Shown here piece by piece: positions 15,281 through 37,491 of a stretch of 37,491 nucleotides of DNA. Location of the stretch: contig JACAEL010000039.1 in the NCBI GenBank assembly GCA_013388835.1, positions 1 through 37,491 of the forward strand, read 5' to 3'. A model generated the notes under the pieces. That model searched no databases, had not been told where the DNA came from, and saw only the letters and a program-made list of their open reading frames with translations. Position 1 is the first letter of the stretch. Each line of letters starts with the position of its first letter. The translations under genes and the position numbers were made by a program. The DNA is from Candidatus Thorarchaeota archaeon. GTDB taxonomy: Archaea; Asgardarchaeota; Thorarchaeia; Thorarchaeales; Thorarchaeaceae.

Positions 15281-15357
15281 GAAACAACCAACCACTGAGC
15301 GCACTTCATGACCGACTATTATCTGTGAGCGTTGCAACCAGCAGTTCCCATGGAAGA

Positions 15358-15366
15358 GTTTATCAC
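15358..15366 (+). promoter_or_regulatory. TATA-like box for xpb
   Basis: GTTTATCAC, centred at 15361 inside the longest xpb reading frame, predicts a transcript start near 15387. It argues against starts upstream of that point and for GTG 15442. Confidence 0.4.
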
Positions 15367-15441
15367 TGGTCCATCGAGCAAACCAGTAATTCCCGTCTGG
15401 CGATACGAGCCCAGATTGAATGCGACAAGAGAGTAACTACG

Positions 15442-17151
15442 GTGCCCAACCCAGCAAACCCATTGATAGTGCAGTCGGACAAGTCAGTCTTGCTGGAGGT
15501 AGACAACCCTCTATATGAGGAGGTCAGGGATTCTCTTGCCCGTTTCGCAGAGCTGGTGAAGAGCCCCGAGTACATTCACACATACCGAGTGACACCCCTC
15601 TCGCTTTGGAACGCTGCCGCCATGGGCATGAAACCACGAGAGGTGATTGACACACTCGAGCGCTATGCCAAGTATCCAGTGCCGTCGAACATAGCACGAG
15701 AGATTGTCGACTACATGAGTAGGTATGGACAGGTCTCGCTCAGGAAGGAGGGCTCGTTTCTGCTATTGGAATGCGAGGACAGCGACATCGCAGAGGAGAT
15801 CTGGGCAAACACCAAGACAAGAGAACTCATCATGGAGCGGGTTGACGATACCTCATTCCTAGTCGACCCTGCACGACGTGGCTTCATCAAGCACGCACTC
15901 ATTGAGATTGGGCACCCCGTAGAGGACCTGGCCGGGTATGTCGAGGGTGAAGCTCTCAGCTTCGAGATGCGGCAGAAGACTCTGAGAGGGAAGAACTTCG
16001 CCCTCAGGAAGTATCAGGAAGAAGCAGTAGCGGTCTTTCACGCCGCAGGCGATGTGACTGGAGGGTCGGGTGTGGTAGTGCTACCATGCGGCGCCGGAAA
16101 GACCATGGTAGGAATCGGTGTGATGCACAGACTTCAGACGTCCACACTGATACTGTGTCCTAACGTCGTGGCAGTACGTCAGTGGATAGCCGAACTGCTG
16201 GACAAGACCACTCTGAAACCCGAGCAGATTGGCGAGTACACCGGTGATGCCAAGACGATACGCCCGGTAACAGCAGCAACCTACCAGATACTGACGCATC
16301 GGAAGTCCAAAGAGGATGAGTTTGAGCACTTCAGGATCTTTGAGGCTAGGAACTGGGGACTGATAATCTATGATGAGGTCCACCTGTTGCCAGCGCCTGT
16401 GTTCCGCATCACCGCACAGATACAGGCCACTCGCAGGCTGGGTCTCACGGCCACCTTGGTCAGAGAGGACGGGCAGGAGGAAGACGTGTTCAGTCTCATA
16501 GGTCCCAAGAGATACGACATGCCATGGAAGCAGTTGGAAGACCAGGGATGGATTGCCACTGCGGTCTGCTACGAGATTCGAATTGATTTGCCCAACGGGC
16601 TCAAGCGAAAGTACGCGGTCTCGGAGGACCGGGCAAAGTACAGGATAGCTGCGGAGAACCCGGACAAGATCGCCATCCTCAGGGACATTGTGCAGTACCA
16701 CCGAGGGGACAACATCCTGATTATTGGCATGTACCTTGACCAGCTCAAGACGATTGCCGATGAGCTGAATGCCCCCCTGATAACAGGGAAGACAAGTAAT
16801 GCTGACCGAGATGTACTCTACAAGGAGTTCAGAGAGGGAAGACTCAAGGTGCTAGTCGTGTCGAAGGTTGCCAATTTCGCACTGGACCTGCCTGACGCGA
16901 ACGTAGCCATACAGGTGTCAGGGACTTTCGGCTCCAGACAGGAGGAGGCGCAACGTCTGGGCAGGATTCTCAGACCAAAGTCCGATGGCAGTGTCGCAAG
17001 ATTCTATTCGATAGTGACAAAGGACACCAGAGACATGGACTTTGCTGGCAAGCGACAGCTCTTCCTCACAGAGCAAGGATACCAGTACGTGATAGCCTCG
17101 GGTTCAGAGAAGATATGGGAGAGGCCCCCTGACAGCTTCTTCCAGCAGTAG
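15442..17151 (+). CDS. xpb: XPB-type DNA helicase (SF2)
   Basis: Superfamily 2 helicase. Numbering from GTG 15325: an XPB N-terminal (damage-recognition-like) domain at about 45-165, with LVKSPEYIHTYRVTPLSLWNAAAMG; motif I LPCGAGKT 253-260; motif II DEVH 350-353; motif III GLTATL; the XPB RED motif at 380-382; and motif VI QRLGRILRP from 543. All catalytic residues are present. Archaeal XPB acts in DNA opening during repair, often with a Bax1 nuclease; no Bax1 gene is beside it here. The frame opens at GTG 15325, but this overlaps the divergent MFS gene and contains a TATA box, and archaeal XPB proteins usually begin near the LIVQSDKSVLLEVDNP strand. I therefore favour GTG 15442. The stop abuts the stop of the next, convergent gene. 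Confidence 0.9.
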   Translation: MPNPANPLIVQSDKSVLLEVDNPLYEEVRDSLARFAELVKSPEYIHTYRVTPLSLWNAAAMGMKPREVIDTLERYAKYPVPSNIAREIVDYMSRYGQVSLRKEGSFLLLECEDSDIAEEIWANTKTRELIMERVDDTSFLVDPARRGFIKHALIEIGHPVEDLAGYVEGEALSFEMRQKTLRGKNFALRKYQEEAVAVFHAAGDVTGGSGVVVLPCGAGKTMVGIGVMHRLQTSTLILCPNVVAVRQWIAELLDKTTLKPEQIGEYTGDAKTIRPVTAATYQILTHRKSKEDEFEHFRIFEARNWGLIIYDEVHLLPAPVFRITAQIQATRRLGLTATLVREDGQEEDVFSLIGPKRYDMPWKQLEDQGWIATAVCYEIRIDLPNGLKRKYAVSEDRAKYRIAAENPDKIAILRDIVQYHRGDNILIIGMYLDQLKTIADELNAPLITGKTSNADRDVLYKEFREGRLKVLVVSKVANFALDLPDANVAIQVSGTFGSRQEEAQRLGRILRPKSDGSVARFYSIVTKDTRDMDFAGKRQLFLTEQGYQYVIASGSEKIWERPPDSFFQQ

Positions 17152-20754: not shown

Positions 20755-20815
20755 CTTAAACCGTGACGGCGAAGCGGCTTGGTCAACTTCCCCAAAGACA
20801 AAGGAGATGCATGGC

Positions 20816-22540
20816 ATGGTTGGAGAAGCGCTCGAAACAGAACTGCAGGAGATGCTGAGAGAGGACCTCCTGGCGGCATGCCAAGTATGGGAAGTCGACA
20901 TGAGCACGAGTCAGTCTGGTGAGAAGCTGACCGAGCTCCTTGCAAAGAAGATGAGGGACAAGACATCCAGAGAATCCGTGTTCGCGACATTCTCTCCCAA
21001 CGAGAGAGATCTTCTGGGTCTGCTGTCTCTCAGCGGGGGAGCAATGAGCTATGACAGACTGAAGCCCTACAGAAGGATATACAGCTATGGACAGCTCAAC
21101 CAGACAGAGAGGGACTTGAGGAAGAAGGGCATCATAGTGAGGAGGGTTGTATCACGTCTGACAGAGTACGGCAGGGAAGTCGCCGAGTTCAAGATAGTGG
21201 ACTTCTTCATCCCGCATCTCACAACCTACTTTCTTAGGAAGCCCGCACCCAATCCAGAACTACCCAAGAAAGCAAAGTCCATCGTAGATGAGAGAGATGC
21301 GCTAATCGTTGACATGTTGCTGCTTGTCTCTCACCTCGCCAAGCGAGAGATACACATGACAAGCTCGTGGGAGTTTCCCAAGAGAGAGATTGACCACATC
21401 AGTGCCACCATGTCAAAGCCGACTGAGGAGAGATTCGACCTCGTTCAAAAGCTGGCACGAAAGGCAGGCGCCTACGCCATTGTCCAGAACGACAGAGCCG
21501 TCCCCAACAATGCTGAGATTCTCTTCAAGGGAAAGAGGGACCAAGTGTCCCGAAGAATCCTGCTGTCTACACTTGGTCGGACTCGTGCCATCTGGGCTAC
21601 TCCTGACCAGCCGACGGAGTACACTCTGAATCTCGCCATCTGTAGACTGCGTGAAGCCAAGATAGGTGAGTGGGTCAGTGTTCAAGAGATGGTCGAGTGG
21701 ATTCGAAGTGAGCTGTTTGCTGAGAACGAACCCCTGAAGTGGATACAGGTAGACGAGGAACGAGTTGCAGTCGCCCTTGAGACCCCAATGCTGCTGGGTC
21801 TTGTCGAAGGAGCATTCAAGGGCAAGACACTACTTGCAGTGTCTCTTACTCAGACTGGGGCAACGGTAATAGCCAAGGAACCGCCTCCTGCGCAGCAGAC
21901 ACAGGATACCTTCTTCGTGCAGCCCAACTTTGAGGTCTCGTGTTACACGAGCGAGATGGACTACTACAAGCTGTACCAACTGATGTTATTCTCCGAGCCA
22001 GTGAAGGTGGATGTGGTGACCATACTCCGTATCACCGACAAGTCCGTCTTCCAAGCGATAGAGGCAGGACTGCGAGGGGAGGACATTCTTGGCTTCCTCG
22101 AGCGAGAGAGCTCCAAGCCAGTCCCAGCAAACGTGGCTCGCTCAATAAGAGACTGGACATCACAGACCACATTCGCCACGGTCGAGAACGTCACACTCTT
22201 CGAGACAGAGACCCAAGAAGATCTTGACGACCTTCTTCTGCTCGAGGTCTTCTCAAAGCATGTGGTTCGCAGAGTCGGCCCCACCGCGGTTGTGGTGAAG
22301 AGCGACATAGACCAGATCAGCGAGGACCTTAGAAAGCATAAGTGCAATGTGAGAAAGGTGGGTGTTGCACCTGTTGAAACAGACTTGTCTGCCGGAGCCC
22401 AGATTGCGGAGCACACGATACTGTATGCTGAAACCCCCGCTTTAGATGTGCCCGAGTCATGTCTGGCATGTCCCGCACTTCAGTCGTGCAACAGGGCACT
22501 GAGAAGGAAAGGCCGTTCAAGGAAGGCATCAACCGAATGA
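20816..22540 (+). CDS. Stand-alone XPB N-terminal-domain protein
   Basis: 574 residues and no helicase motifs. Residues about 365-455 match the XPB/Ssl2 N-terminal domain (Helicase_C_3 type): FVQPNFEVSCYTSEMDYYKLYQLMLFSEP, then ILRITDKSVFQAIEAGLRGEDILGFLER and VPANVARSIRDW. The same pattern appears in the XPB of this window (PEYIHTYRVTPLSLWNAAAMG...PSNIAREIVDYM). The upstream 350 residues contain winged-helix-like segments (TFSPNERDLLGLLSLSGGAMSYDRL). The C terminus has CLACPALQSC, a possible metal site. Similar helicase-free proteins are known in actinobacteria. A DNA- or XPB-binding role is inferred. The ATG at 20816 is preferred over ATG 20807 because AAGGAG (20801-20806) is 9 nt before it. 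Its stop overlaps the next start (ATGA). Confidence 0.75.
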   Translation: MVGEALETELQEMLREDLLAACQVWEVDMSTSQSGEKLTELLAKKMRDKTSRESVFATFSPNERDLLGLLSLSGGAMSYDRLKPYRRIYSYGQLNQTERDLRKKGIIVRRVVSRLTEYGREVAEFKIVDFFIPHLTTYFLRKPAPNPELPKKAKSIVDERDALIVDMLLLVSHLAKREIHMTSSWEFPKREIDHISATMSKPTEERFDLVQKLARKAGAYAIVQNDRAVPNNAEILFKGKRDQVSRRILLSTLGRTRAIWATPDQPTEYTLNLAICRLREAKIGEWVSVQEMVEWIRSELFAENEPLKWIQVDEERVAVALETPMLLGLVEGAFKGKTLLAVSLTQTGATVIAKEPPPAQQTQDTFFVQPNFEVSCYTSEMDYYKLYQLMLFSEPVKVDVVTILRITDKSVFQAIEAGLRGEDILGFLERESSKPVPANVARSIRDWTSQTTFATVENVTLFETETQEDLDDLLLLEVFSKHVVRRVGPTAVVVKSDIDQISEDLRKHKCNVRKVGVAPVETDLSAGAQIAEHTILYAETPALDVPESCLACPALQSCNRALRRKGRSRKASTE

Positions 22541-26002: not shown

Positions 26003-27004
26003 TCAGGTACAGCCCATGTCCTCTAGTATCCTATCGATGTCAGATCTCGACCCGTGGAGCTTGCGCCACTCAAGGATGGCGAGAGCTATTGCGTTCATGG
26101 TGACCAGACTCACATCCTTGACCCCCAGTTCTCGTGACATTGAGTGAACCGGATTCCGGACATAGTACACATCGTCGGACACCCCTGTACGTTTGCGGAA
26201 GGTCCTGTCTGTGTTCGTCCAGAGCCACACGGTGCCAGCGTGACCGTCTCGCGGGTAGAGCGTACACTGGACGCATCTGACCGATCCGAGCTCATCGGAA
26301 ATTGACTCGATGCCTACTTGTCCCTCAAGGCCCGAGATACCGATACGCACTCTTGGTCTGCGATACACGGTCAGTCCATCCACAGTGGCACGGTCCATGA
26401 CCAACTGCACTCCGGACACACCGTGAATAGAGGCCTGAGTCTTCGCGAGTGCAGATGCTTCTCTGAGCAATGGCAGTGAGAAGTCATGAGAGGCATCATT
26501 TGATGTGGACAGGAAACCGCCAATCCCACTGACTGAAGCCAAAATGAGCAAGTTGGCGAGGTAGAGTGCGCCTCGGGTTGAAGAGGAGAGGTCAATCCCC
26601 AATAGCGGCGTCAGCGGAATGGCTGCGCTTAGAAGGACACATAGTATGGGTAGATAGAAATGCCAGAAGCTGCTTCGTGCAACGAGTCGTAAGTACTGCG
26701 TGTTATGAGAACGACGGAGCCTGCGCACTTCATCGAGAGAGAACGCCGCCTCCTCAAACGTCCACTTGGGAGGCGCATATGATACTGTGTGCTTCTTCAT
26801 GTGCCAGCCGAGGTAATATGCGACACACGATGTCAGAACTGGCAGGGCTACGAACAGAGTCACAAGTACGGTCAGATCAGTCTGTGCCAAGTCCACAGAG
26901 CCAACGCCAATGAGCAGTCCCAGCACAATACAGGCGGCCAGTGCAAAACCAGTCAGCAGGTCCAGCTTCTGTGGCTTGTCATACCTGACATACATGGAGG
27001 CCAT
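26003..27004 (-). CDS. Membrane protein, first of a tandem paralogous pair
   Basis: 333 residues from ATG 27004, with four hydrophobic helices in two pairs and a soluble beta-rich C-terminal region (VQLVMDRATVDGLTVYRRPRVRIGISG). The frame extends 54 codons upstream to 27166, but a palindromic TATA box CTTTAAAG (27038-27045) predicts a start near 27017, so ATG 27004 is the real start. The mRNA leader would carry a 16-bp inverted repeat. The gene probably encodes one half of a hetero-oligomer with its downstream duplicate. Function unknown. Confidence 0.6.
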   Translation of the reverse strand: MASMYVRYDKPQKLDLLTGFALAACIVLGLLIGVGSVDLAQTDLTVLVTLFVALPVLTSCVAYYLGWHMKKHTVSYAPPKWTFEEAAFSLDEVRRLRRSHNTQYLRLVARSSFWHFYLPILCVLLSAAIPLTPLLGIDLSSSTRGALYLANLLILASVSGIGGFLSTSNDASHDFSLPLLREASALAKTQASIHGVSGVQLVMDRATVDGLTVYRRPRVRIGISGLEGQVGIESISDELGSVRCVQCTLYPRDGHAGTVWLWTNTDRTFRKRTGVSDDVYYVRNPVHSMSRELGVKDVSLVTMNAIALAILEWRKLHGSRSDIDRILEDMGCT

Positions 27005-27014
27005 GCGCGTTCCC

Positions 27015-27030
27015 TCGTGTGACCACACGA
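27015..27030. repeat. 16-bp inverted repeat (candidate operator)
   Basis: TCGTGTG (27015-27021) and CACACGA (27024-27030) are perfect inverse copies with a 2-nt spacer. The site lies between the TATA box and the ATG of the membrane-protein pair and covers the predicted transcription start. Confidence 0.5.
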
Positions 27031-27037
27031 CTGGCTG

Positions 27038-27045
27038 CTTTAAAG
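27038..27045 (-). promoter_or_regulatory. TATA box for the paralogous membrane-protein pair
   Basis: CTTTAAAG, perfectly palindromic, centred 37 nt before ATG 27004. It decides the start of that gene by excluding the upstream extension. Confidence 0.6.
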
Positions 27046-27176
27046 GTTCTGAAGCGAGTGAAGAACACCCATCTGCGGTACTCTCAGAAATGTGAACCAT
27101 TCGCGGGTTGGACAGGCCTGACACAATAGCCGCGTCGAACACTACAAGCGGTACCTTGACGGACACAGCATCATGC

Positions 27177-27183
27177 TTATATA
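27177..27183 (+). promoter_or_regulatory. TATA box for the peroxiredoxin genes
   Basis: TTATATA centred at 27180 predicts transcription start near 27206, immediately before the first Bcp gene. Confidence 0.65.
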
Positions 27184-27194
27184 CGGAGGGGCAT

Positions 27195-27206
27195 TAACAA
27201 TTGTTA
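27195..27206. repeat. 12-bp perfect palindrome at the peroxiredoxin transcription start
   Basis: TAACAATTGTTA is a perfect palindrome ending at the predicted transcript start, between the TATA box and the start codon. Candidate site for a repressor, possibly redox-responsive given the genes downstream. Confidence 0.5.
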
Positions 27207-27219
27207 TCAGGTGTTTGCG

Positions 27220-27702
27220 ATGCTCAAAGTGGGTGATAGAGCTCCCGACTTCTCGACTACTACAGAGTCAGGTGAGCCATTCAAGCTCAGTTCCCTAAAG
27301 GGAAAGAGAGTTGTGCTCTACTGGTATCCAAAAGACGACACGCCAGGATGCACCGAAGAAGCCTGTTCGATTCGTGACAACTACGCAGTATTCCTGGATG
27401 CAGGCATTCCTGTCTTTGGAATCTCTGGTGGGGCGGCGAAGTCCCATCAGGCTTTCAAGAAGAAGAACAATCTGCCCTTTCCACTTCTGATGGACGAGGA
27501 CTTCAAGATTGCACAACTCTACGGAGTGTATGTCAAGAAGCAGATGTACGGCAAAGAGTACATGGGAATCGAGAGAACAACATTCCTGATAGGAAAGGAC
27601 GGCAGTATTGAAGGGGTGTTTGGTGGACCCGCAGGTATTGACAAGGTGAAGACCAAGGAACATGCCTCTCAAGTCATTGAATTCTGGAAGCTGAAACTGT
27701 AG
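27220..27702 (+). CDS. bcp: Peroxiredoxin, Bcp/PrxQ type (first copy)
   Basis: About 160 residues. Thioredoxin-fold peroxidase that reduces hydroperoxides. The active site is DDTPGCTEEACSIRD, with the peroxidatic Cys in PGC (residue 44 from ATG 27220) and the resolving Cys five residues later (49), as in atypical two-Cys Bcp enzymes. GERVVLYWYPKD-like and ERTTFLIGKDGSIEGVF strands are standard. The mRNA is probably almost leaderless; GTG 27211 is an alternative start. It forms an operon with a second copy 16 nt downstream. Confidence 0.92.
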   Translation: MLKVGDRAPDFSTTTESGEPFKLSSLKGKRVVLYWYPKDDTPGCTEEACSIRDNYAVFLDAGIPVFGISGGAAKSHQAFKKKNNLPFPLLMDEDFKIAQLYGVYVKKQMYGKEYMGIERTTFLIGKDGSIEGVFGGPAGIDKVKTKEHASQVIEFWKLKL

Positions 27703-27718
27703 CAGGAGACAGGACAGG

Positions 27719-28189
27719 ATGAAAGTAGGAGACGCCGTTCCGGACTTCGAAACTGTAGATGAGTCTGGAAGACCATTTCGTTTGAGCGATTACAGAGGAA
27801 AGAAGGTGGTGTTATACTTCTACCCCCGCGACTTCACTCCTGGATGCACAGCCGAAGCCTGTTCAATTCGCGATAGCTATCAACTCTTCGAAGGAGCAGG
27901 CATTCCCATATTCGGAGTATCGGGAGGAGATGCAGAACAACACAGGAAGTTCAAAGAAAAGCACAGACTTCCATTTCCCATTCTGGTCGATGAACAGCTG
28001 AAGATTGCCAAGCTATATGGAGCGTACAGCAGACTGGGTGTAGTAGGGCTCGGAGTGAAACGCATTACATACCTCATCGACGAGAAAGGAACAATCGAAG
28101 GTGTCTTCGGTGGTTCGGATGGGCTGGACAAGGTCAGGTCAGAGAGGCACGCAGAACAGATATCACAGTTCTGGGGACTCAAACTATGA
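27719..28189 (+). CDS. bcp: Peroxiredoxin, Bcp/PrxQ type (second copy)
   Basis: 156 residues, clearly a duplicate of the gene before it; by eye more than half of the positions are identical. Active site DFTPGCTAEACSIRD with peroxidatic Cys43 and resolving Cys48, both kept. AGGAGACAGGACAGG precedes the ATG, giving a ribosome-binding site for internal translation from the shared transcript. Retention of both Cys pairs suggests that both copies are active, perhaps on different peroxides. Confidence 0.92.
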   Translation: MKVGDAVPDFETVDESGRPFRLSDYRGKKVVLYFYPRDFTPGCTAEACSIRDSYQLFEGAGIPIFGVSGGDAEQHRKFKEKHRLPFPILVDEQLKIAKLYGAYSRLGVVGLGVKRITYLIDEKGTIEGVFGGSDGLDKVRSERHAEQISQFWGLKL

Positions 28190-29250: not shown

Positions 29251-30612
29251 ATGCCTGAACAGAAAGTAACAGTAGAAGAGCTGAAGAAGAAGGCTGAGAA
29301 GCCTGGAAAGGACGCTCTGGTCCTACATCCGTTCTACCAGGGCAAGATAATGTCCATTGGAAAGGCACCTGTCAGGACTTTCGATGACTTTGCAATCTGG
29401 TACACCCCCGGTGTCGCCAAGTCATGTCTGGTTATCAAAGACAATGAGGAAGCAGCCTATGAACACACTAACAAGGGCAACATGGTCGCTGTCGTGAGTG
29501 ACGGAACCAGGGTACTTGGACTTGGGGACATTGGTCCATACGGGGCAGGACCTGTCATGGAGGGCAAGGCACTGCTGTTCAAGTACTTGGGTGGGGTTGA
29601 TGCATGGCCGGTCTGTCTTGACACCAAGGACCCCCGCGAGATTATTCGGACGGTCAAGATAATACAGCCGAGTTTCGGTGGCATCAACCTTGAGGACATC
29701 TCCAAGCCAAAGTGCTACAAGGTGCTTGAAGAGCTGAGGAAGGACAAGGACGTCAAGATACCGGTATGGCATGACGATGCCCAAGGCACAGCTACAGTGG
29801 TACTGGCTGGAGTACTGGGCGGTCTCAGAGTGGTCAAGAAAGACATTGAGAACATCACTGTTGCATTGTTCGGAGTTGGAGCAGCCAACACACGCACAGC
29901 ATACTTGCTCATATCAGCAGGAGTCGACCCGAAGAACATAGTCATGGTTGACAGTGTCGGAGCGTGCTATGCTGACCGCGAGGACATAGTGGCGGAAAAG
30001 GACGATGACACGTTCAAGTACGACCTCGCGCAGAAGACCAATCCCGAGAGGAAGACTGGCGGTCTTGGTGACGTGATAGACGGCGTGGATGTACTAATCA
30101 GTGCCTCTACGCCGGTCCCTGGAACCATCAAGAAGGAGTGGGTCGCCAAGATGGCAAGAGACTCGATAGTATTCGCCTGCGCCAATCCACTGCCGGAGAT
30201 ATGGCCTTGGGATGCGAAGGAAGCAGGCGCAAGGGTTGTTGGAACCGGGCGTAGCGACTTCGAGAACCAGATCAACAACTCGCTCGGCTTCCCCGGTATA
30301 TTCAGAGGGACTCTTGACGTGAGGGCAAGGACAATCACGGACGAGATGTGTATTGCAGCAGCTCAGGCGCTAGCAGACCTTGGCGCGAAGGAAGCAACTG
30401 AGCGCAAGGTCATTCCGACCATGGACCAGTGGGAGCTTTACCCGGCTGAGGCTACAGCAGTTGGAATGAAAGCCATAGAGCAGGGCATTGCACGGAAGCA
30501 GTGGGAGAGGAAGGACCTCTACAAACATGCGGAGCAGGTCATCCGTGCCGCGCGCAGTGCCTCAGATATCCTCTACAAGCAGGGAATCATACCCAAGGCA
30601 CCACCCACTTAG
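29251..30612 (+). CDS. Malic enzyme (malate dehydrogenase, oxaloacetate-decarboxylating)
   Basis: 453 residues, the short prokaryotic form without a phosphotransacetylase domain. It converts malate to pyruvate and CO2 with NAD(P). Motifs in order: YTPGVA at about 51-56, SDGTRVLGLGDIGP at about 83-96, the catalytic Lys in EGKALLFKYLGGVDAWPVC, LEDI and HDDAQGTA (metal ligands), GVGAAN for the dinucleotide (GxGxxN variant), ANPLPEI, and TGRSDFENQINN. All catalytic residues are present. A strong hairpin follows the stop. It links the TCA-cycle pool to pyruvate. Confidence 0.95.
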   Translation: MPEQKVTVEELKKKAEKPGKDALVLHPFYQGKIMSIGKAPVRTFDDFAIWYTPGVAKSCLVIKDNEEAAYEHTNKGNMVAVVSDGTRVLGLGDIGPYGAGPVMEGKALLFKYLGGVDAWPVCLDTKDPREIIRTVKIIQPSFGGINLEDISKPKCYKVLEELRKDKDVKIPVWHDDAQGTATVVLAGVLGGLRVVKKDIENITVALFGVGAANTRTAYLLISAGVDPKNIVMVDSVGACYADREDIVAEKDDDTFKYDLAQKTNPERKTGGLGDVIDGVDVLISASTPVPGTIKKEWVAKMARDSIVFACANPLPEIWPWDAKEAGARVVGTGRSDFENQINNSLGFPGIFRGTLDVRARTITDEMCIAAAQALADLGAKEATERKVIPTMDQWELYPAEATAVGMKAIEQGIARKQWERKDLYKHAEQVIRAARSASDILYKQGIIPKAPPT

Positions 30613-30620
30613 GAGAACGC

Positions 30621-30640
30621 ACGGGGTCATTCGACCCCGT
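30621..30640 (+). terminator. Terminator-like hairpin after malic enzyme
   Basis: ACGGGGTC (30621-30628) and GACCCCGT (30633-30640) form a perfect 8-bp stem around ATTC, nine bases after the stop at 30612. A pyrimidine-rich run with several T stretches follows (to about 30662). Confidence 0.65.
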
Positions 30641-30702
30641 TCATCTCCTCTTCCTTTTCTCTTGAAGTACACGAACACTCCATTCAGGGGATGTCTGAAC
30701 GA

Positions 30703-32670
30703 CTAGCGGATACGTCGCCAGAGGGTCAAGGAGCCAACTGCCACTGGCGCAATCCCTAGCAAGCACATCACGACCAGCCAGTTGACTCTCGGGTTTGCAT
30801 CAGAACCATCGGCTGCGGCGTCGAGGTCATAGTCGGGTGTGAGAGGATCAAGGCCATTAGCAAGCTCTAGGTAGTCCCGAAGCCCGTCTGAGTCGGTATC
30901 ATCACTCAGGGGGTTCATTCCCAGGCGGACTTCATCAGTGTCAGACACTCCGTCACCATCACCATCCACGGACAAGGGATCTGACCCGCATAGATACTCT
31001 TGGAGATTGGTCAGCGTGTCATTGTCTGGATCATATTGACCGTCACTGTCTAGCGGATTGGTGCCGTATTGCACTTCCCAACCGTCAGGCATCCCGTCCG
31101 AATCAGTATCATTGAGGACCGGGGAAGTGCCCAGTCCAATCTCCAATCCATTGGCGATCCCATCCGAGTCATAGTCTTCAAGATGATCGTCTCTTAGTGG
31201 GTTCAAGCCGCAAGCAACCTCGACGGAGTCAGAGATTCCATCCTTGTCCGTGTCAGTCACGAAGATGTCAGTCCCAATGACTGACTCGTCTGCGTCGCTG
31301 AGCCCATCATCATCCCAGTCCAGTGGAGGATTGGGGTCTGGCCACGAATACTCGTCGGCGTCAAGGACACCATCGCCATCAGTATCGGAGTCGTAGGTCA
31401 AGTAGACTAATGCATGCTCGGTACCGTTGCCGGTGTTCGTCACCGACAGGGTCAGCTCACCAAGACCTGACTGCGTTGAAGACTCGTACTCGAATGTGTG
31501 AGGAGCAAGAACGGACGAGATGAGAGTCGTTGAACCCTGGGTCAGAGTCAGTCGGAGAGTTGAGTTGGATGTGGAGTTGCCGTGAACCGACAGAGTCTGA
31601 GACATTGTCATGACTGCATGGAGCCGAGCTGTCGCATAGGGCAAGAGTGTCGCTTGGAGCATCTGAACTGTCTGTTGACCGTTGCCCTGCATTCCAAGAT
31701 AGACTGCTACCGAGGCCGCCGCCCGTGCAGCATAGAGGGCCTGAGCACAGTCATAGTCCGTAGAATAGGGACTGTCAACCGGTGGAAACTCCGGATCGGG
31801 TTGGTGTCCGCTTCGAACGTTCACTGCTGGTATGCCTGCGCTCATGAAGGGAATGTGGTCTGTCTGGACCTGCTGCAGTTGCTGGACACTCGTTATCGAT
31901 TGCCCCGATTTGCGCATGAATGACGCGAACAGGTCAGCAAAGTACTTGGTCCTATGGTAGCCTTGTCCGACATCAGCTTCGTGCTCAGCTATGAGTCTGG
32001 AACCGGGGGACTGCCATAAGGATCGGTATAGCAGCTCGTCGAAGTTGTACGACACAATGACACTCACTCCCCGATTCTCCAGTTCAGCTACGACCTCCTT
32101 GGAGCCATACAGAGCACGGTTCATGTGCTGTTCGTCCAAGAACTCCATGTTGCCAGCGTAGAAGCAATAGTAGATGTCGACCGGCAATCGATACTCTGCA
32201 AGAATCGAGGCGATGGTCAGTACGACGGCCACTCCTCCTCCATTCTGCTCGATTCCACTCGAACTCTCATCACTGTCAAGGTGTGCACCAAAGACAATCG
32301 AGCGCACATCAGTGCCATAACCCTTCTGAACAGCCACGACGGAGTGATGTGGTCCCCAGTAACCAGACGGTATCGAGAACTCCTGAAGACGACTGATGAC
32401 GTATTCGGCCGCTTGTGTGTATCCAGGGGTCCCATCGAAACGAGGACCTATGGCATACAGACGCGACAGCACTGTTGTGATATCACTCTCGCTCGAATAG
32501 TACCACGGTATGTCCCACCAGTTGAGCGAGTTAAATGGGTGCGGGACGATGGCAGGTTCTTCTTGACCATCGTTCGTATCAGGAGGTGGCGCAACCTGCA
32601 TGAGACTGATGATGACAATCGTGGCCAGTACTATGGCAGTGACTATGACTGGGGACTTCCGTGAGACCAT
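30703..32670 (-). CDS. Surface M28-like protein with calcium-binding repeats, probably catalytically degenerate
   Basis: 655 residues. A signal or anchor helix at 7-25; an M28 metallopeptidase fold at about 60-330; a beta domain at about 335-425; a series of thrombospondin type 3/EF-like calcium repeats at about 425-625 (DTDGDGVLDADE, DTDKDGISDSVE, DTDSDGMPDGWE and others); and a C-terminal membrane helix with WRRIR. So it is an outward-facing, membrane-anchored protein. His130 and Asp132 (HLD) and the TDHIPF/GIPAVN segments are kept, but the bridging Asp is replaced (EQNGGG, Gln142), the catalytic Glu-Glu is NM (174-175), the later Asp is Asn209 and no final His is evident. A TATA-like CATAAATA (reverse, 32721-32728) precedes it. 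Confidence 0.8.
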   Translation of the reverse strand: MVSRKSPVIVTAIVLATIVIISLMQVAPPPDTNDGQEEPAIVPHPFNSLNWWDIPWYYSSESDITTVLSRLYAIGPRFDGTPGYTQAAEYVISRLQEFSIPSGYWGPHHSVVAVQKGYGTDVRSIVFGAHLDSDESSSGIEQNGGGVAVVLTIASILAEYRLPVDIYYCFYAGNMEFLDEQHMNRALYGSKEVVAELENRGVSVIVSYNFDELLYRSLWQSPGSRLIAEHEADVGQGYHRTKYFADLFASFMRKSGQSITSVQQLQQVQTDHIPFMSAGIPAVNVRSGHQPDPEFPPVDSPYSTDYDCAQALYAARAAASVAVYLGMQGNGQQTVQMLQATLLPYATARLHAVMTMSQTLSVHGNSTSNSTLRLTLTQGSTTLISSVLAPHTFEYESSTQSGLGELTLSVTNTGNGTEHALVYLTYDSDTDGDGVLDADEYSWPDPNPPLDWDDDGLSDADESVIGTDIFVTDTDKDGISDSVEVACGLNPLRDDHLEDYDSDGIANGLEIGLGTSPVLNDTDSDGMPDGWEVQYGTNPLDSDGQYDPDNDTLTNLQEYLCGSDPLSVDGDGDGVSDTDEVRLGMNPLSDDTDSDGLRDYLELANGLDPLTPDYDLDAAADGSDANPRVNWLVVMCLLGIAPVAVGSLTLWRRIR

Positions 32671-32825
32671 TACTGACTCTTCTGGCTCTGCTTGAGGCCG
32701 TGTGACTCGTCACTGTCGCACATAAATATCCGCCGAAAGAAGCACCTCCAAGGAGAGAAACCAATCGGCAGGGCTATTAGCATCGCTCTGTGCATAGAGG
32801 CCAGTTTTGGCTTTGGTGTTGTGAC

Positions 32826-33938
32826 ATGGAGTATGACAGATGCGTTCGATGTGGTTCATGCCTGAAGTTCTGCCCTCTCTTTCAAGTCACTGGAGAAGAG
32901 CAGTTCTCACCTCGAGGAAAACTGTATCTCCTTCAGGTGATGGACCAGATAAATGACGACCCCGAGTTAGGCAAGGAGTTCCGTAGACTCCTCTTCCAAT
33001 GCACGCTCTGTGGACGGTGCAAAGAGAACTGTGCATCCGATGTGGACCTACTGAGAATCTGGCACGAACAACGCGCAAAGGCGATTGAGCAGGCACCAGA
33101 GGAGTTTGCGTATCTAGATGCACTGAGAGACTCGCTTGCCAATGTGAAGAACATATACGGACTCGACCCCGAAGACCGAGCGGTCTTCTGGATTGATGAG
33201 CTAGTCGACGACATTCCAGGGATAAATGACAGGGTCTATGCGCCGGGCAAGACAGCTGAAGTCGTCGTCTTCCTCGGTTGTCTGATGTCGTTCAGAGGTA
33301 GTCAGATTGATGTGGTGAAGGCGCTATTCAAGTCACTTGAGGCCTTCGGAACGGACTACTTGGTCATGGGGTCTGAAGAGTTCTGTTGCGGTCATCCCCT
33401 CTACCTGATAGGAGATGAACATGGCGCAGAACAACTGAGGGAGCACAACAGGACTGTCATCAAAGAAGCCAAGGCGAAGAGCGTGATAACCTGCTGCCCC
33501 GGCTGTCTCATTCAGCTGTCACAGCACCATCGGCTGCAGGGGGTTGAGGTGTTGCATCACACACAGTTCTTCGACCGACTGATTGAGGAAGGAAAGGGAC
33601 CCAAGGTCGACACGGTCGAGGAGTTCTCGTATCATGACCCTTGTGAACTGCACAGGATAATGGGCGTGAAGACGGAGCCACGTTCGTTGATGAAGAAACT
33701 CGGACTCAAGGTCAGAGAACTCGACCTTGCCTGCTGCGGCGGCGGAGGTCTCCTGAGGATGACCGACCCGGGTTTGAGCGACAAGATCATGGAGGTAAGG
33801 AAGAAGTCGGAGGGGCTTGCAGGAGTCACGGTCCTGACGTGCTGTCCATCATGCAGAGAACAGCTGCTCGCTGCCAACATCAAGACCAGAGACATCGTAG
33901 AGATGCTCTCCGAGGCCCTCGAAAAGGAGGGAGAATGA
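32826..33938 (+). CDS. Fe-S oxidoreductase subunit with two CCG domains (LutA/GlpC/HdrD-like)
   Basis: 370 residues from ATG 32826. Two [4Fe-4S] ferredoxin motifs stand at the N terminus: CVRCGSCLKFCPLF and CTLCGRCKENC; the second set lacks the usual Pro. Two cysteine-rich CCG domains follow: CCGHPLYLIG...CCPGCL and DPCELHR...CCGGGG...CCPSC. It is an electron-transfer subunit that commonly works with a FAD-dependent hydroxy-acid dehydrogenase, which is exactly the next gene. The frame begins at 32790, but the first 12 residues look unrelated and ATG 32826 begins MEYDRCVRCGSC. It lies 1 nt before the start of the FAD subunit. Confidence 0.88.
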   Translation: MEYDRCVRCGSCLKFCPLFQVTGEEQFSPRGKLYLLQVMDQINDDPELGKEFRRLLFQCTLCGRCKENCASDVDLLRIWHEQRAKAIEQAPEEFAYLDALRDSLANVKNIYGLDPEDRAVFWIDELVDDIPGINDRVYAPGKTAEVVVFLGCLMSFRGSQIDVVKALFKSLEAFGTDYLVMGSEEFCCGHPLYLIGDEHGAEQLREHNRTVIKEAKAKSVITCCPGCLIQLSQHHRLQGVEVLHHTQFFDRLIEEGKGPKVDTVEEFSYHDPCELHRIMGVKTEPRSLMKKLGLKVRELDLACCGGGGLLRMTDPGLSDKIMEVRKKSEGLAGVTVLTCCPSCREQLLAANIKTRDIVEMLSEALEKEGE

Positions 33939-33939
33939 A

Positions 33940-35277
33940 TTGAAGATCAGAGATGTAGTAGCCGGTGCAAATGCCTCAATCTACTATCGCATGAACTTCA
34001 AACTGATAAAAGGTGTGTTCTACCCGAGGACCGAGAATGATGTCATAGAGGCCATCCGCCTAGCCCAAGAACATGGCTTTGATGTGACCCCGAAGGGCGG
34101 GGGATCGGGTCTCAGTGGAGCATGCACGGGCGGTAACAGGGAACGCATCATCTTGAGCTCACTGCAGATGAAAGAGGTGCTCGGATTCTCCAAGGACCAG
34201 GGCTACGTTGATGTGCAAGCAGGGACAACTCCAGATGAGATCAACGCAGTGCTTCAACCGAGTGGACTACGGTTCTGGGTGGCACCCAGTAGCAGGGACG
34301 TGGCCACGGTGGGAGGAATCCTGAGTACAGATGGCGGAGGCAACGATGCATGGATCAATGGCACTATGCGTGACAACACCCTCAGAGTCAAGATGGTGCT
34401 CTATGATGGTCGGCTCATCGTTGTTGACCACAAGGGGGTGAGAAGCCCTGACAAAGAGCTGGAGGCACAGCTGAACAGCGCAGGAATGACTCTGAATGAT
34501 GTTGCAGGCTCCCATGGGACACTGGGATTCATCACCGAACTGAGACTGGTAGTGAGGCCAGCGAAGACCCAGAAGTTGGTTGGTGGCGTGTCTCACTTCG
34601 CTGACTGTAGCGAGATGGGAAAAGCAATTGACCGAATGGTCCGTGCGAACAGCCCGATTGTCTACGGCGAGGCAATCACGTCAGTGCACGAGGACATAAG
34701 GGGAGAGCTGACACCACCACTACTAATCCTCGAGTTCCCGGAAGCATACGAGCACGAGATTGCAGGCATGTCACAATACACACGATATGACCCCACCGCA
34801 CTCAAGGCTATGAAGGACATCCGACTGAAGCTTCCCAAGCGTAATCCCGTGAGGGGGCGGCAACTCGCCCTCTTCGAAGACTATGGGTTCTATGGGGAGA
34901 GCCTTGTGCACATGCAAGAGAGAATAGATGAGATAGATAATCTGCTTCGCAAACATGAGTTCTAGCCCTTCGCCAAGTACGGTCATGCTCCTAGCAAGTG
35001 GTACTTGGGAGACAACTCTGCAGCCTTCGGGGTCATACTTCACTCAAGGGAGATCAGACCAGAACAGAAGTCTGGAAAGGACATATACCGGGCAGTCCTC
35101 GACATCGTTGAGACCTGCGACAGACTGGGCATAACTCCCAAACCCGAACACAAGTGGCCATACAGCGACCGCACGAAGAACAAGCGACTTCAGCAGCTCA
35201 GGGAGATACTGGGTGGAGGATTCAACGACTTTGTCCTACAGCCCGACTGTAATGAGGTGCTCGGCTCGATGGTGTGA
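33940..35277 (+). pseudogene. GlcD-like FAD-dependent oxidoreductase interrupted by an in-frame TAG
   Basis: The first part (33940-34965, TTG start, strong GGAGGGAG ribosome site) encodes 341 residues with a PCMH-type FAD-binding domain: PKGGGSGLSGACTGG, GTTPDEINAVL, and VATVGGILSTDGGGNDA...GSHGTLGFITEL. After TAG at 34963-34965 the same frame stays open for 104 codons (34966-35277) and encodes PFAKYGHAPSKWYLGDNSAAFGV and a C-terminal region to LQPDCNEVLGSMV, which fits the C-terminal cap of this family. Read through, the product is 445 residues plus the unknown residue, a normal GlcD length. The second part has no good start or ribosome site. It is the catalytic partner of the Fe-S subunit upstream. 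It may be a recent nonsense mutation, an amber readthrough or a split protein. Confidence 0.7.
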
Positions 35278-37339: not shown

Positions 37340-37491
37340 TCGAGCAGCTGCCACGCCTGTGGAGAGCGGGGCATTCGAACGTCCGACCTCCAGTCCACAC
37401 ACGAGGTGAGAGGCGGAGAGTACTTCTACTGCCCATCATATCACACGCACGCTCACGCTGACATCAATGCTGCTCGCAACTGTCTATGTCC
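37340..37491 (+). pseudogene. tnpB C-terminal remnant (runs off the window)
   Basis: In the frame through 37349 the sequence encodes CHACGERG, then THEVRGGEYFYCPSYH and HADINAARN, the zinc ribbon and final motif of IS605/IS607 TnpB. The second CxxC is changed (CPSY), which suggests decay. Everything upstream of the ribbon in tnpB, including the RuvC domain, is absent. Directly following the tnpA HTH, this shows an internal deletion joining the two ends of an IS607-type element. The right end lies outside the window. Confidence 0.7.

Follow-up and report, generated by a model that had tools for sequence, protein, structure and literature searches.

Results

A lone TAG codon divides a glcD-like gene with an intact downstream frame

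A glcD-like flavoprotein gene in an archaeal genome, whose closest named relatives are Candidatus Thorarchaeota genomes, contains one in-frame TAG codon that its relatives lack; the reading frame beyond this stop is intact, and machinery for decoding TAG as pyrrolysine was not detected. We lean towards the explanation that the codon arose by a single recent nonsense substitution, private to this lineage and truly present in the sampled cells. The window, by which we mean the whole 37,491-nt stretch of DNA that was analysed, is contig C39 of a metagenome-assembled draft of 3.01 Mb (97.6% complete, 125 contigs). The features concerned are as follows.

32790–33938, + strand: Fe-S/CCG partner gene (GlcF/TfrB/GlpC-like), intact, GTG start, TGA stop
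33940–34965, + strand: glcD-like gene under the standard code, 341 amino acids, TTG start, TAG stop, FAD-binding domain
34963–34965, + strand: in-frame TAG, codon 342, private to this genome
34966–35277, + strand: post-TAG segment, 103 codons plus TGA, with the motifs PFAKYGHAPSKWY, HSRE and TPKPEHKW
35005–35277, + strand: 90-amino-acid ORF from the first in-frame start (TTG) past the TAG, a mechanical call that we do not consider a gene

The TAG is the only internal stop in frame 33940–35277, as the first-pass annotation of this DNA had reported, and stands at codon 342 of 446 when the final TGA is counted. The same annotation gave 104 codons after the TAG, which is correct only with the terminal TGA included, the sense codons numbering 103. 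It had also described an intact Fe-S partner 1 nt upstream, and we found this gene unbroken, with 1 nt between its end and the glcD-like start. The TTG start of the glcD-like gene agrees with the start position in relatives.

We characterized the interrupted gene by treating it as a readthrough product. Its only Pfam match was FAD_binding_4 (PF01565) at residues 24–162 (109.3 bits; cut-off 26.4). Since the C-terminal part had no Pfam match of its own, its earlier description as a GlcD-type C-terminal cap rests on orthologues and predicted fold, while the accompanying statement that it is protein-like and undecayed held good. The NCBIfam GlcD model (TIGR00387) scored 79.8 bits, far below its cut-off of 567.9; judged by sequence, the gene is a "GlcD-like FAD enzyme" only, distant from the glycolate oxidase subunit GlcD. 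An AlphaFold2 model (mean pLDDT 83, pTM 0.85), for which the window sequence and relatives served as input, found its best fold matches among D-lactate dehydrogenases (9qit and 8jdu, TM ~0.67). The partner gene encodes a Pfam Fer4_8 domain and two CCG stretches, and in 40 of 45 loci, one of them from Heimdallarchaeota (L069), an Fe-S gene immediately preceded the homologue; this total counts some places twice, as they came from two collections. The five remaining loci comprised four partial matches and one full-length copy (L067). Thus the PF01565 domain, the fold match and the Fer4/CCG partner gene immediately upstream are shared with GlcD/D-lactate dehydrogenase-type FAD enzymes, from which this protein differs in its sub-cut-off GlcD score and in the lack of a Pfam match in its C-terminal part. 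The probable function is that of a GlcD/GlcF-like D-2-hydroxyacid dehydrogenase complex. The family is divergent, being found in Thorarchaeota and, at ~45% identity, in Heimdallarchaeota.

The segment after the TAG retains family constraint

Residues 343–445 could be aligned with relatives at up to 74% identity, and an alignment of 33 distinct relatives showed that all 22 invariant and all 40 near-invariant family columns located after the TAG were kept, which implies that selection acted on this segment until recently or is acting on it still. Codon log-odds per codon were 0.209 before the stop and 0.200 after it, with GC3 values of 0.61 and 0.67, respectively. By these comparisons the post-TAG segment is genuine coding sequence; the homology is decisive here over the openness of the frame, the chance of 103 codons staying open being ~3%.

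We then compared the homologous site across the family. The same-family set contained 47 genomes, 35 of which (this one included) had a strong homologue, giving 38 copies in all, three of them partial yet spanning the site. An internal stop was found in none of the 37 other copies (34 genomes). The first-pass annotation had raised the possibility of a conserved TAG; instead, eight different residues (T, E, V, A, K, I, Q or R) were aligned to codon 342 in the 33 distinct relatives. Residue 342 is thus freely variable, and the TAG occupies neither a conserved codon nor a catalytic position. A single substitution turns AAG, CAG or GAG into TAG, and K, Q and E are all seen at this site in relatives. 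None of the comparison genomes was of the same genus, and the nearest homologue was 65% identical, so that the recency of the stop is only loosely bounded.

No second copy of the glcD-like gene was found in this genome, the other matches being distant paralogues. Three relatives carry two full-length glcD-like copies each (G009, on contig C73 at 26794–28128 and 30596–31930; G019; and G035), and the gene has therefore been duplicated in the family. The second copy of G019 is the locus L067, which lacks an Fe-S partner upstream.

TAG is a common stop codon and pyrrolysine machinery is undetected

To describe stop codon use, we sampled 437 kb of the genome, made up of 400 kb of stretches plus the window. 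Its 294 predicted genes ended in TAG in 134 cases (46%), in TGA in 139 and in TAA in 21. Within the window, the xpb, malic enzyme, M29 peptidase and RFC-like genes are TAG-terminated, as first annotated, and the argument drawn from them against genome-wide recoding was borne out in the larger sample. With TAG a main terminator, genome-wide reassignment of this codon is refuted.

The genome had no match to PylS (TIGR02367), a search in which the control, Methanosarcina acetivorans, was detected, and only two weak matches to PylB (TIGR03910; 27 bits against a cut-off of 348), which we take to be ordinary radical-SAM proteins. Across the phylum, 2 of 228 genomes had PylS above cut-off, and ARAGORN placed a tRNA-Pyl beside pylS in both. 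An Asgard tRNA-Pyl covariance model built from the tRNA-Pyl genes of these two genomes recovered its source genomes at ~1e-23 and nothing in the present genome at E ≤ 10; as the two sequences behind the model are near-identical, it could miss a very divergent tRNA-Pyl. A generic CUA/T-arm pattern yielded no contiguous CUA tRNA in this genome: its six matches equalled the number in the backwards control, and none lay in a recognisable tRNA. The readable Rfam tRNA matches, among which intron-containing tRNAs were incompletely recovered, likewise included no CUA anticodon.

Two other searches were set aside. A consensus tRNA-Pyl pattern had no match here and was discarded, as it also missed both pylS-bearing genomes. 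ARAGORN at a relaxed setting of 80% produced many spurious tRNAs, including one "tRNA-Pyl" (L081), and was ignored. In the tRNA-Pyl genes of the two pylS-bearing genomes (L073 and L074), the D stem follows the acceptor stem with no intervening base, the anticodon stem has 6 bp, and the CUA anticodon is preceded by C in place of U. Many tRNAs of the present genome contain introns of 12 to 63 nt (ARAGORN; L039–L045 and other tRNA loci), and about half of its expected tRNA set is all that standard tools recover.

Pyrrolysine decoding in Asgard archaea has been placed in Sifarchaeia, and some Thorarchaeia and Lokiarchaeia have tRNA-Pyl sequences without a pyl gene cluster (Sun et al. 2021, PMC9723677). 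The present case shares with Sifarchaeia an Asgard host and an in-frame UAG in a genome where UAG is also a frequent stop (PMC9723677). By contrast, PylS, PylB above cut-off and tRNA-Pyl were all absent from our searches of this genome, the gene is not a methylamine methyltransferase gene, and the TAG is unconserved in relatives. Pyrrolysine at codon 342, and with it the earlier suggestion of programmed amber readthrough in this form, is refuted by the absent machinery together with the unconserved TAG.

We also looked for other genes interrupted in this manner. Among ~290 genes in the 437 kb, with candidates judged by eye, there was no convincing second single-stop split. Nearly all of the other same-frame junctions have an ATG, GTG or TTG a few codons away at most and resemble the start of a following gene. 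A class of TAG-interrupted genes was likewise not found in the 437 kb.

Discussion

Given that all relatives have a sense codon at the site and that stop-reading machinery was not found, a recent mutation or an assembly error is most likely, not recoding. The first-pass annotation had listed both, and had tied a simple mutation to sense codons in all close relatives and to a genome with no suppressor tRNA; this is the pattern that we found, with a tRNA search that is not exhaustive for intron-containing tRNAs. In the mutation that we favour, one base change would have converted a sense codon (AAG, CAG or GAG) at a variable position into TAG. Translation would then end at residue 341, with loss of the C-terminal 103 residues. 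As these include the best conserved motif, the GlcD/GlcF-like flavoprotein subunit is probably inactive in cells with the TAG allele, and too little time would have elapsed for the sequence after the TAG to decay. We infer that the base is real, the truncated protein inactive and the event recent. The pattern is that of an ordinary private nonsense mutation or nascent pseudogene: one stop, in one lineage, with sense codons in relatives and no decay yet.

The main competing explanation, which we rate as clearly less probable though serious, is a consensus or assembly error in the draft, in which case the gene is intact in the cells, with GAG, AAG, CAG or another sense codon at the site. We found no feature that distinguishes the case from an ordinary nonsense mutation or from a single-base consensus error in a draft genome, and literature on the statistics of error versus mutation in such genomes yielded nothing directly usable. 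Two points weigh against the favoured reading: the total absence of decay, with none of the 40 constrained columns changed, fits a consensus error equally well, and the genome has no close paralogue to excuse loss of the gene. A one-base difference would suffice, and the absence of any other convincing interrupted gene in 437 kb is as expected of a rare, isolated error. Against such an error stands the site itself: the TAG at 34963–34965 is in no homopolymer, is not near a contig end (the window ends at 37491) and bears no sequence sign of low quality.

Amber readthrough or suppression, in which an unrecognised CUA tRNA or leaky termination would insert residue 342 and yield some full-length enzyme, is improbable. 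Almost any insertion would do at a position that tolerates eight residues, the downstream constraint is intact, and the many intron-bearing tRNAs, the partly recovered tRNA set and the tRNA-Pyl sequences reported from some Thorarchaeia that lack pyl genes (Sun et al. 2021, PMC9723677) leave room for a hidden decoder. These points are opposed by a TAG that is conserved in no relative and terminates 46% of genes, by searches that found no PylS, no tRNA-Pyl, no contiguous CUA tRNA and no CUA anticodon among the readable tRNAs, by the want of a class of TAG-interrupted genes in the 437 kb, and by the RNA 3′ of the stop, which is ordinary (z −0.51), with no stimulatory structure predicted. More doubtful still is a specific version in which an unrecognised suppressor tRNA, with an intron and a CUA anticodon and carrying a standard amino acid, would read an occasional internal TAG, with TAG still a main stop. 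The idea that the gene encodes a true split protein, with each part translated on its own by stop and restart before the two assemble, is the least probable of all. A 90-amino-acid ORF from TTG 35005 does exist; yet this first in-frame start lies past most of the conserved PFAKYGHAPSKWY. Restart only at the end of this block would leave the motif missing from both products, and a split, another of the options first proposed, is unlikely because the best conserved motif comes after the stop but before the first restart codon. In addition, no Shine-Dalgarno sequence precedes TTG 35005, the ATG at 34955, close to the stop, is in another frame, and no relative is split. In the AlphaFold2 model, the stop follows a helix and falls at the start of a beta strand (342–355), so the break is not between domains.

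As a finding about the genetic code, a private nonsense substitution is ordinary. It serves mainly as a caution that a single TAG within a frame of an archaeal draft genome is no evidence of recoding when every relative has a sense codon at that site and TAG commonly ends genes. Suppression, if true, would amount to pyrrolysine-independent amber readthrough in Asgard archaea; the evidence points the other way.

Other genes in the window

An xpb helicase gene at 15325–17151 (+ strand) has ERCC3_RAD25_C and Helicase_C_3 matches. About 3.7 kb from it, a gene at 20807–22540 (+ strand) encodes a protein of 577 amino acids that matches Helicase_C_3 and, weakly and below the cut-off, Tfb2 (22.6 against 34.5 bits). 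Tfb2 is the p52 subunit of TFIIH, the partner of XPB in eukaryotes; the 577-amino-acid protein may be a p52-like partner of XPB in this Asgard archaeon. On the − strand, a gene at 30703–32670 encodes a 655-amino-acid protein with an M28 peptidase domain and a match to bacterial TSP3 repeats.
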